DNA of 64,000 nucleotides. Source: an uncultured Oscillospiraceae bacterium. Lineage in GTDB: Bacteria > Bacillota > Clostridia > Oscillospirales > Oscillospiraceae. Positions 5,854 to 31,990 of the stretch are shown piece by piece. The position numbers and the translations under genes were made by a program. The notes under the pieces were generated by a model, which saw nothing but the letters and a program-made list of their open reading frames with translations, was not told where the DNA came from and did no database searches. Position 1 is the stretch's first letter. Every line of letters begins with the position of its first letter. The stretch is from the NCBI GenBank assembly GCA_947628805.1, contig CANRBG010000006.1, forward strand, positions 1 through 64,000, written 5' to 3'.

Positions 5854-6348
5854 TCATAGCCTTCTGCGGCTGAAGCGCCTGACGCGGACAGGGCCGATGG
5901 GTCCCGCTCGCCATAGTACCAGGCCGTCGTAATACTTCTCCTCGCCCCGGCGCCGGGCTCCTATCGCGTCCCGTATGTCCGAAAAGGCGCCAAGATAGTA
6001 TGTCTTCCCCATAAACGTGATCTGTGCGCACCATTTGCCGCTGCGCTTATCCCGGTATACGCCGTTATACCCGCTGGTGTTGGAGCTAATGGGCGTTTTC
6101 AGCCGGTTCTCTATCATGGTAACGGATGTTCCATTTATGAGTTTCAGGTTATTTCTGGGGCTCTCCCTCTGCAAACATCCGCAGCTCTTCCGATCCCCCC
6201 GATTCAGCTGAGCAATGGTAGCCAGACACTCGCCGCCGCAATCGCACCGGCACCGCCACAGCATACAACCGTCAGCACCGCACTCCCCGGTAGGTTCAAT
6301 ACATGTCTGCCTTCCGTACCGTCTCCCGCGCAGATCCTTAACGGCCAT
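5854..6348 (-). CDS. AP2-domain protein with Cys-rich N-terminal zinc-binding motif (phage/mobile-element type)
   Basis: CRCDCGGEC...KSCGC followed by SGYNGVYRDKRSGKWCAQITFMGKTYYLGAFSDIRDAIGARRRGEEKYY. Confidence 0.8.
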   Translation of the reverse strand: MAVKDLRGRRYGRQTCIEPTGECGADGCMLWRCRCDCGGECLATIAQLNRGDRKSCGCLQRESPRNNLKLINGTSVTMIENRLKTPISSNTSGYNGVYRDKRSGKWCAQITFMGKTYYLGAFSDIRDAIGARRRGEEKYYDGLVLWRAGPIGPVRVRRFSRRRL

Positions 6349-6614: not shown

Positions 6615-7250
6615 CTATATTGTTTCAGATGGGGATAAACCTTTACTTTTTTCCCCAGTCACGGTCGATGAGGCCCATTTCAGGAACGTCTTGTGCGCTA
6701 CGCCGAGGCGTTCCGCCGCTTTTCTGGCTGTGAGCGCACCCTGTTCCCATTCGCGAAGTATCACTTCAAACGCCTCCGGACGCTCCTTGGGACGCCGGCC
6801 GAACTGTACGCCTCGCTCTTTCGCCGCTGCGATCCCCTCGGCCTGCCGCTGGCGGATGAACTCCCGCTCTGTTTGCGCCACATAGCTCAGCAGCTGCAGC
6901 ACGATGTCCGCTATCAGCGTCCCCACGAGATCCCGCCCCTGCCGTGTGTCCAGCAATGGCATGTCCAGCACGACGATCGCCACGCCCTTTTTCTTGGTCA
7001 GCAGCCGCCATTGCTCCAGGATCTCATCATAATTGCGCCCCAGCCGGTCGATACTCTTGATCACAAGAGTGTCGCCCGGCTTCAGCTTTCGGACAAGGCG
7101 GCGATAGGCGGGACGGTCAAAGTCCTTTCCTGACTGCTTGTCCGTGAATACATTTTCGTCGGCTATGCCAAAATCACGCATGGCTATCCGCTGACGATCC
7201 GTATTCTGTTCTTTGCTGGATACGCGAACATAACCGTATGATGTACTCAT
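6615..7250 (-). CDS. Serine site-specific recombinase (resolvase/invertase family)
   Basis: MSTSYGYVRVSSKEQNTDRQ...DRLGRNYDEILEQW...; Hin/Pin-type C-terminal HTH. Start moved from 7430 to the ATG at 7250. Confidence 0.93.
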   Translation of the reverse strand: MSTSYGYVRVSSKEQNTDRQRIAMRDFGIADENVFTDKQSGKDFDRPAYRRLVRKLKPGDTLVIKSIDRLGRNYDEILEQWRLLTKKKGVAIVVLDMPLLDTRQGRDLVGTLIADIVLQLLSYVAQTEREFIRQRQAEGIAAAKERGVQFGRRPKERPEAFEVILREWEQGALTARKAAERLGVAHKTFLKWASSTVTGEKSKGLSPSETI

Positions 7251-7272
7251 ATCGTTCCCTCCTGATCCTATT

Positions 7273-7509
7273 ATGCTGAATAGTTTAGAGGAAACCTTGA
7301 TCGCACATAAAGTACTTCTTGCTCGAATCCAATTTGGCGCCGTGCTTAAAAGCCCCTTGCAAGTCAAGGGCGGAATCAGCAGTTCCACGATACGGCGGCT
7401 GAAAGGTGGAGAATCTGTCTCTACCAACACGCTGGAAGCCCTATGTCAGACTTTGAACTGTACATTATCTGACATCGTGGCGTACTTACCCGACGCGCAG
7501 GATAAATGA
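7273..7509 (+). CDS. XRE-family HTH protein
   Basis: GGISSSTIRRLKGGESVSTNTLEALCQTLNCTLSDIVAYLPD; divergent from the recombinase. Confidence 0.7.
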   Translation: MLNSLEETLIAHKVLLARIQFGAVLKSPLQVKGGISSSTIRRLKGGESVSTNTLEALCQTLNCTLSDIVAYLPDAQDK

Positions 7510-30211: not shown

Positions 30212-30304
30212 GGAGAAGTCGCGTAGCCTGGTCGAGCGCGCACGATTGGAAATCGTGTATACCCCAAAAGGGTATCGGGGGTTCGAATCCCCCCTTCTCC
30301 GCCA
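30212..30304 (+). tRNA. tRNA-Ser(GGA)
   Basis: GGAGAAG...CACGA-TTGGAAA-TCGTG anticodon arm, long variable arm ATACCCC-AAAA-GGGTAT, GGTTCGAATCC, CTTCTCC, encoded CCA. Confidence 0.95.
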
Positions 30305-30436: not shown

Positions 30437-30476
30437 GTCAAAAATCCCGCCCTTTTTGGGGGCGGGATGCTCTGTT
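30437..30476. repeat. Direct repeat, left copy (DR-L) flanking the AbiTii module
   Basis: gtcaaaaatcccgccctttttgggggcgggatgctctgtt. Confidence 0.9.
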
Positions 30477-30527
30477 GTGGCTCGCAGATCCAGATAGGAT
30501 ACCACAGCTGTATCGATATCGATCCGA

Positions 30528-31163
30528 TCACTTACTCAGCCCAAGCCAAATGCAGATCGCGACCGCCATGACCGCTGCGGCTATGGGGATGATAAACTGC
30601 CAGAACACCTTAGATAACAGTGTTCCCTTCTCTTTTTTCGCAGAACCGGTTTTATTTTCAATCTCCACTGTATCGTACGCGCCGATGGAACTGCCGGTGA
30701 TACTGTTTCCATCCCCAATATGTATGCTGTTATCTTCATATTTTACAACTGTGGCAGCGGGATGCGCTGCATATAGCTTATGCCGGTTTTGAAGAGCGTC
30801 TCTGAGATCAACAAGCCACTGTTCATTTTCCGAAGTCAATATAAACTCCTGTTGACCCATTTTAACTCTATTGCTGGAGTAAACACTGATAAGTATACCA
30901 TTTAAACTTTCTGACGCCCATATTGTGATATGCCCGACCTTGATTTCTTTTCCAAAGGCGTACTTTTTAAATTCATCTATTGAATGGCAGTCATATGATA
31001 ATTCACCTGACTTGAATGAAACAGCGCAGTTGATGTCTATATCTGACTTGTTTTTGAATACATATTTCAATGCATCAGCTATCCAATTATATGTAGCGAT
31101 AACATCGTCAAAAAACTCCAGCTCGTGCTCACGATCTAAATATCTGCACTCGATATCAGCCAT
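30528..31163 (-). CDS. Unknown protein with N-terminal soluble domain, 'NSIHIGDGNSITGSSIG' motif and C-terminal TM helix
   Basis: MADIECRYLDREHELEFFDDVIATYNWIADALKYVFKNK...KYEDNSIHIGDGNSITGSSIGAYDTVEIENK...VFWQFIIPIAAAVMAVAICIWLGLSK. RBS aggagag; overlaps the upstream gene. Confidence 0.85.
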   Translation of the reverse strand: MADIECRYLDREHELEFFDDVIATYNWIADALKYVFKNKSDIDINCAVSFKSGELSYDCHSIDEFKKYAFGKEIKVGHITIWASESLNGILISVYSSNRVKMGQQEFILTSENEQWLVDLRDALQNRHKLYAAHPAATVVKYEDNSIHIGDGNSITGSSIGAYDTVEIENKTGSAKKEKGTLLSKVFWQFIIPIAAAVMAVAICIWLGLSK

Positions 31164-31833
31164 TCCCATCTCTCCTACCGACGATACTTGCCCCTTCGAT
31201 CTGGTTTTTATCGCCAATACTTATACTGTTATCCACATAAATATATTTATAAATAGCGTTATTCGTTTTAGTGATTTCTTCTGAAGAGACAGCGCTGGCT
31301 TCAACATCCAGTTCGTCAAGGCACCCATATGTCTTATCCAGTTCGAGGAAAATCTTCATCAGCCGCATTTTGACGGCGCTCAACACCCCTTGGAATACAT
31401 TTTTAGGAATCGTCTGCTTGATGGAATAGCATCGTATCCCACATTCTTTCGCTACCATGCCCGCCGCCCAAGTTAAATCCCGGCCTACTTCAATGTTCTC
31501 CGTACTGTTCACGATCCCCTCTATTGTGCCGATCCCTTCCGTAATTGGAATATAAAAAACCGACGGGTCTTCTGTGTTAAGGATCTCCGGAAGAGGTATC
31601 GGCGCATTTTCGACTTTAAAGCCCCCGTTAATACCGCTATACTTGAAAAACGTCTTCTTTGCCAGGCGGTAATCCGGGACCTTATTCTCACCGTAGCCAT
31701 TCAATTCACATTCAGCCCACTCTTTTAGTTCATTGTTATCTATATCGGTCGCGATAACAAACAGACGTCCCAATGCTACCTCAAGAGAAATGTTGTTGTT
31801 CGCCAGTTCCTTTATGATCGTACTCTTCGCCAC
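31156..31833 (-). CDS. AbiTii-domain (abortive-infection type) protein
   Basis: GTG start at 31833 with RBS AGAGGAG; VAKSTIIKELANNNISLEVALGRLFVIATDIDNNELKEWAECELNGYGENKVPDYR...; C-term VDNSISIGDKNQIEGASIVG. Confidence 0.83.
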   Translation of the reverse strand: MAKSTIIKELANNNISLEVALGRLFVIATDIDNNELKEWAECELNGYGENKVPDYRLAKKTFFKYSGINGGFKVENAPIPLPEILNTEDPSVFYIPITEGIGTIEGIVNSTENIEVGRDLTWAAGMVAKECGIRCYSIKQTIPKNVFQGVLSAVKMRLMKIFLELDKTYGCLDELDVEASAVSSEEITKTNNAIYKYIYVDNSISIGDKNQIEGASIVGRRDGNG

Positions 31834-31879
31834 TTTTATTCTCCTCTGCACGCATCGAATTCCGCTCATTTATAAAGAT

Positions 31880-31885
31880 AATATA
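31880..31885 (-). promoter_or_regulatory. Putative -10 (TATATT) of the AbiTii module
   Basis: Minus strand TTGTAG-N17-TATATT about 45 nt upstream of the GTG start; -35 is weak. Confidence 0.4.
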
Positions 31886-31950
31886 TCACGCCTTGATCTA
31901 ATCTACAACCCTTGAATAATTCCTCTGATAGTGTTATCTTAAACCTAGCA

Positions 31951-31990
31951 GTCAAAGATCCCGCCCTTTTTGAGGGCGGGACGCTCTGTT
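31951..31990. repeat. Direct repeat, right copy (DR-R) flanking the AbiTii module
   Basis: gtcaaagatcccgccctttttgagggcgggacgctctgtt; 37/40 identical to 30437-30476. Confidence 0.9.

Follow-up and report, generated by a model that had tools for sequence, protein, structure and literature searches.

Among described systems, AbiT of Lactococcus is encoded by two genes, abiTi and abiTii, in a bicistronic arrangement; no lactococcal AbiT protein is toxic in E. coli, whereas AbiTi of C. catus (Coprococcus catus) is toxic in that host and AbiTii did not neutralise it (PMC3985639). AbiTii domains are elsewhere fused to HEPN RNase-type domains, and how Abi proteins such as AbiTii act is termed largely enigmatic (PMC3710099). 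Another point of reference is given by the amyloid signalling motifs, which are described as highly diverse, some 25 residues in length and occurring in matched pairs from neighbouring genes (PMC12261475, PMC7889193).

Here we analyse a gene pair in a window of 64,000 nucleotides, that is, the whole stretch of contig CANRBG010000006.1 under study, from a Clostridia-type host genome whose assembly is incomplete (82% complete). Both open reading frames lie where the initial annotation had put them, co-directional on the minus strand and overlapping at their ends by 8 nt. The AbiTii-domain protein gene (31156-31833, minus strand, 225 aa) has a GTG start at 31833 with AGGAG before it and a stop at 31156-31158, and encodes the domain followed by a 20-aa motif tail, while the partner gene (30528-31163, minus strand, 211 aa) runs from an ATG at 31163 to a stop at 30528. 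An AGGAGA Shine-Dalgarno-like site is located in the last AbiTii codons, ahead of the partner ATG, and this placement is consistent with translational coupling of the two genes. The AbiTii identity of the upstream product, as proposed from the sequence, is confirmed by Pfam PF18864 (E=3.5e-27, residues 17-188; 96.3 bits against a cut-off of 27.6) and by the PADLOC AbiTii model (6.2e-28). The Pfam search gave no other domain in this protein, neither HEPN nor another recognisable effector domain, and its AlphaFold model is of too low quality for a structure search.

The partner protein consists, in order, of an α/β N-domain of unknown family, a linker, a motif, another linker and a C-terminal TM helix. 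It matches no family above cut-off in Pfam, NCBIfam, PHROGs or PADLOC, and the PADLOC AbiTi model does not match it even at E<=1. The single C-terminal TM helix read earlier from the sequence is borne out both by its strong hydrophobicity (Kyte-Doolittle 2.58 at residues 191-209) and by the AlphaFold model, which has a C-terminal helix at 185-210; the corresponding segment (30531-30611, minus strand, residues 185-211) resembles the tail of a fused AbiTii-TM protein discussed below. In the same model the blocks of the N-domain mostly reach pLDDT 70-87, and the motif region is unstructured (pLDDT <50). Foldseek searches with the partner model found no significant match in PDB or among viral structures, the weak resemblances to a helix-grip or an S-adenosylmethionine-decarboxylase-like fold being set aside, and sequence searches of PDB gave chance matches only.

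The comparison with AbiT is one of partial likeness. The window pair agrees with AbiT in the AbiTii domain, in the adjacent co-directional genes and in a partner with a hydrophobic C-terminus. However, the window partner fails the AbiTi model and differs in N-domain, motif and TM tail, and AbiTii comes first in the window and in its relative from Pseudoflavonifractor sp. MSJ-37, whereas AbiTi comes first in three other genomes compared below (G009, G1369 and G1446). The initial annotation knew of no characterised AbiTii + TM pair, which does not hold, since AbiT already pairs AbiTii with AbiTi (PMC3985639), and the AbiTi proteins compared here are of membrane type. Its description of the module as undescribed stands in part: a two-gene system of AbiTii and a membrane-type protein was known, but the mismatch to AbiTi and the reversed order are not those of AbiT. 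Judged by sequence, the pair is AbiT-like, without the AbiTi part of the definition and with the gene order reversed.

The pair is a 1.5-kb insertion between 40-bp direct repeats. The left repeat (30437-30476), downstream of the partner gene, has a terminator-like hairpin inside, and the right repeat (31951-31990) holds the terminator-like hairpin of lplA; the two are 93% identical to each other, with 0 expected by chance. A tRNA-Ser (GGA) gene (30212-30304, plus strand) adjoins the insertion. The segment has a G+C content of 0.42-0.44, whereas the 500-bp bins around it range from 0.59 to 0.72. In a genome of the same genus (G002, locus L038) we find the empty site, namely tRNA-Ser, one repeat copy corresponding to the right repeat, and then lplA, with no pair; its flanks match those in the window at 93.5% identity towards lplA and at 86% towards tRNA-Ser, and no AbiTii match is found anywhere in that genome. 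The single repeat without the pair shows that the segment is a true insertion. Both the AT-richness and the repeat-bounded island of the initial annotation are upheld. The inserted segment has no integrase or recombinase of its own. The tRNA was rejected as the actual integration site, because the repeats lie 133 bp past its 3' end and consist of terminator-like hairpins, not tRNA sequence. In L038, the GTAGTCAAAATGTAGTCAAA sequence between tRNA-Ser and the single repeat recurs on the other side of the tRNA, which suggests that tRNA-Ser is an integration hotspot in this genus. Elsewhere in the window, a serine-recombinase-like (resolvase/invertase) open reading frame, judged by eye, stands in a GC dip at 6615-7430 (minus strand), near a small one at 5854-6348 that by eye resembles an AP2/HNH-type mobile protein; this region is possibly another mobile insertion.

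On the whole, the pair is rare. A pattern scan of the genomes of 85,488 species reveals one other homologue of the partner, in Pseudoflavonifractor sp. MSJ-37, and the same homologue is the 1 found among 301 genomes sampled from the family; 2 of the 301 family genomes have the pair. The MSJ-37 proteins are 66% (AbiTii) and 45% (partner) identical to those of the window, with the 8-nt overlap kept and AbiTii first, and the pair is flanked by hsdS and hsdR within a type I R-M operon, whose hsdM, hsdS and hsdR were verified by Pfam. This neighbourhood survey supports the conserved coupling suggested at the outset, as the window partner and the sole homologue found are both paired with AbiTii, and the suggested defence-island setting is seen in MSJ-37. 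The pair is thus a recurrent unit, in a defence setting in MSJ-37, in a small sample of two. Between the pair and hsdR there is also an uncharacterised gene (L014, 6710-7561) that matches Abi_alpha below threshold (E=4e-4) and whose product has a hydrophobic stretch at the N-terminus. No relative of the pair was found in phage records or viral contigs; the AbiTii proteins that a broader profile finds in viral contigs are single-chain ones.

A further feature of the pair is a motif common to both proteins, which is new relative to the initial annotation and absent from the open-access passages retrieved on AbiTii. It spans about 19-20 residues of the form YxDNS[IV]xIGDxN and is located at the C-terminus of AbiTii (YVDNSISIGDKNQIEGASIVG, residues 199-219, 31177-31239, minus strand) and, separated by a short linker from the TM helix, in the partner (YEDNSIHIGDGNSITGSSIG, residues 142-161, 30681-30740, minus strand). 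The best local alignment between the two proteins, YVDNSISIGDKNQIEGASI against YEDNSIHIGDGNSITGSSI, has 13 of 19 residues identical, the proteins being otherwise dissimilar. This evidence consists of short alignments, but shuffles, cross-pair controls, conservation and a search of the whole genome all back it. The Smith-Waterman score of the window pair is 62, which none of 1000 shuffles reached (mean 32.4, sd 5.0), and the MSJ-37 pair scores 63, likewise reached in 0 of 1000. When the partner motif is searched against the whole 1.7-Mb genome, the only non-self match at E<=1 is the adjacent AbiTii tail (E=0.021); its matches in other genomes and plasmids were discarded as chance-level ones in unrelated proteins. 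Between the window and MSJ-37, no part of the partner is better conserved than the motif (75%; the N-domain has 47% and the linkers 21-26%), and in AbiTii it is conserved at 67% against 43% for the linker. The motifs vary in step across the two species (AbiTii/partner: DNSI/DNSI vs DNSV/DNSV, and NQ/NS vs NK/NK). The same codon is used at 9 of 13 matching motif residues in the window and at 3 of 12 in MSJ-37, which indicates that in MSJ-37 the likeness is kept at the protein level and does not reflect a recent DNA duplication. The motif links two otherwise unrelated proteins, and its presence in both suggests a route by which an AbiTii sensor may dock on, or switch on, a membrane partner.

Motif sharing is also observed in other AbiTii pairs, including the AbiTi/AbiTii pairs compared here, which in this respect are like the window pair. 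The PADLOC AbiTi model spans a motif and a helical, hydrophobic tail. Bouchard et al. reportedly found in 2002 that the C-terminal hydrophobic region of AbiTi is essential for AbiT of L. lactis. The model matches the partners of G009 (5e-34) and G1446 (1e-43), as well as that of G1369, which was itself found with the model (2e-41); the N-terminal parts of the three AbiTi proteins differ, with a QIQQGTxNSSQ-type motif kept. The AbiTii tails of G009 (SNSQFQQGTTNSGQ) and G1446 (TDTQFQQGTTNSKQ) carry a motif of the type QQGTxNSxQ that matches the adjacent AbiTi, and the sharing in G1369 is weak (58 of 1000 shuffles). The pair of Synechococcus sp. PCC 7502 has its own motif, of the NFxxxVGAVQxG type (NFYATVGAVQTGRENTANVNQ and NFHGNVGAVQNGDRNIAHVTQ); a fourth motif, a weaker one, is common to the members of a Nostoc plasmid pair. 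Across eight loci, which were those reached by the searches and not a random sample, the true pairing has a score of 459, and 3 of the 40,320 assignments (the true one included) score at least as high; own pairs average 57 against 30 for pairs of different type.

The sharing does not extend to all loci. In Enterococcus faecium, local alignment gives no motif in common between the members of the AbiTii pair, which is found on a plasmid (L006, 3019-4216), where AbiTii overlaps by 8 nt the gene for a protein of 192 aa that has a hydrophobic segment at its N-terminus, with a DUF262 gene and an EcoRI-family methyltransferase close by. In Macrococcoides and Exiguobacterium, AbiTi-like proteins reached from the partner side have no AbiTii alongside, so that AbiTi-like tails are neither always paired with AbiTii nor exclusive to AbiTii pairs. 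At three further places (L034, 1979-3091; L035, 2483-3109; L036, 2480-3058) an AbiTi-like motif-plus-tail stands on a different, beta-rich N-domain (VTLVKKDG...), with no AbiTii seen alongside, and the beta-rich AbiTi-like gene of Acetobacter is flanked by genes for a TPR protein and a CHAT-domain protein. Other arrangements of AbiTii include a TIR-domain gene overlapping a short AbiTii-like gene without the C-terminal part on a Lysinibacillus plasmid (L007, 1019-2379), and Enterobacter and Aeromonas plasmids (H53-H63) with up to 9 AbiTii-like places on a single record, two of the copies being 2.3 kb apart, one of them truncated, in the L027 stretch.

In addition, AbiTii and a membrane part can be joined in one chain. 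Most of the AbiTii proteins examined from plasmids and viral contigs are about 295-310 aa long and combine AbiTii, an N/G/Q-rich motif-like region and an AbiTi-like tail; in many of them, not in all, the C-terminal part is recognised by the PADLOC models AbiTi, PDC-M14B or both. Another fusion, in G121, joins AbiTii directly to a TM tail resembling those of the window and MSJ-37 partners (score 60 for the window and 92 for MSJ-37, with maxima of 47 and 51 among shuffles, 0 of 2000), with no motif. These single-chain proteins are like the window pair in the AbiTii domain and, for G121, in the TM tail, and differ from it in having one chain instead of two and, for G121, in having no motif. Both kinds of membrane part, AbiTi-like and TM-tail, therefore occur either fused to AbiTii or separate, and where the two are on separate chains, they usually have a motif in common.

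From the AbiTii domain, the R-M operon setting, the motif sharing, the single-chain fusions and the toxicity of C. catus AbiTi in E. coli (PMC3985639), we infer a role in phage defence, and on balance the pair is probably an AbiT-like abortive-infection module, in which an AbiTii sensor or regulator would be coupled through the motif to a membrane effector. Such roles were already proposed in the initial annotation (AbiTii as sensor or partner, the TM protein as membrane effector or anchor); they are plausible and gain in weight from the motif and the single-chain fusions, each role being putative. AbiTii would be soluble, and the partner would be membrane-anchored with an α/β domain of its own. 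Upon phage infection, AbiTii would assemble through its motif and draw in, or act as template for, the partner's matching one, as a putative beta-arch and possibly as an amyloid; the clustered TM helices of the partner would damage the membrane, by which the cell would die or phage production would be halted. The motif would in this way replace the covalent linkage found in the single-chain relatives. Several observations count against this module: there are two examples of the exact pair, the E. faecium pair has no shared motif, the sharing in G1369 is weak, the G121 tail is without the motif, the motif region of the partner is unstructured in AlphaFold, and AbiTi-like proteins occur without an adjacent AbiTii.

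Other explanations were weighed against the same evidence. An overlapping two-gene operon on a small mobile-looking insertion, with a toxin-like TM partner, would also fit a toxin-antitoxin system, where AbiTii restrains the toxic TM partner on its motif and the pair mainly stabilises the segment, and direct binding through the common motif would suit an antitoxin too. We regard this as unlikely, because the toxicity of C. catus AbiTi goes unneutralised by AbiTii, which fits an effector better than a toxin under antitoxin control, and because the lactococcal proteins are non-toxic in E. coli (PMC3985639), and fusions of AbiTii to an effector suit an antitoxin poorly; these points concern AbiTi-type partners, unlike that of the window. 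Far less credible, indeed highly improbable, is a reading outside defence, with an orphan insertion whose genes are decaying or unrelated and whose motif likeness would come from an old duplication: the missing integrase and the rarity in the family would agree with it, but both frames are intact and conserved across genera, the motif is better conserved than the flanking linkers, and the MSJ-37 pair is placed in an R-M operon.

A further alternative is a constitutive membrane complex. Here the motif would be a static assembly segment, such as a small beta-solenoid or mixed oligomer, by which AbiTii is tethered to the membrane; AbiTii would be the active component and the partner an anchor only. 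The N/G/I pattern of the motif would suit a beta-arch or solenoid, G121 has AbiTii simply joined to a TM tail, and the HEPN RNase fusions (PMC3710099) would be in keeping with an active AbiTii. A mere anchor, however, would have no need of the extra conserved domain of about 127 aa in the partner, and the window AbiTii is devoid of HEPN or another recognisable effector domain, so that we hold this reading to be rather doubtful.

Returning to the abortive-infection module, templated assembly is an attractive form of it, as the motif has N and G alternating with residues that are small or hydrophobic, like amyloid signalling motifs, and occurs in matched neighbouring pairs. By analogy, the pair may be likened to the BASS pairs (NLR + Bell effector), which have adjacent or overlapping genes for a receptor and a membrane-type effector, and one short motif matched within a pair and varied between pairs (PMC7889193, PMC12261475); the window pair differs in having no NLR, the AbiTii protein having no other Pfam domain, and in that each of the two proteins has its motif at the C-terminus or close to it. 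A bolder proposal, which we offer tentatively as possible though not the expected outcome, is that AbiT abortive infection is an NLR-independent form of amyloid (prion-like) signalling, in which AbiTii would nucleate a cross-beta motif and template that of a membrane-damaging partner. Under the prion-like proposal, the window pair would be a version with motif and effector both exchanged in comparison with classical AbiT.

A motif matched between AbiTii and its partner, differing from pair to pair and made superfluous by fusion in single-chain relatives, provides a coupling mechanism that is concrete and testable. Should the motif be amyloid-like, the finding would bear on the question, raised in PMC7889193, of signalling amyloids in NLR-independent bacterial pathways, with gut Clostridia and a likely defence context as the setting.
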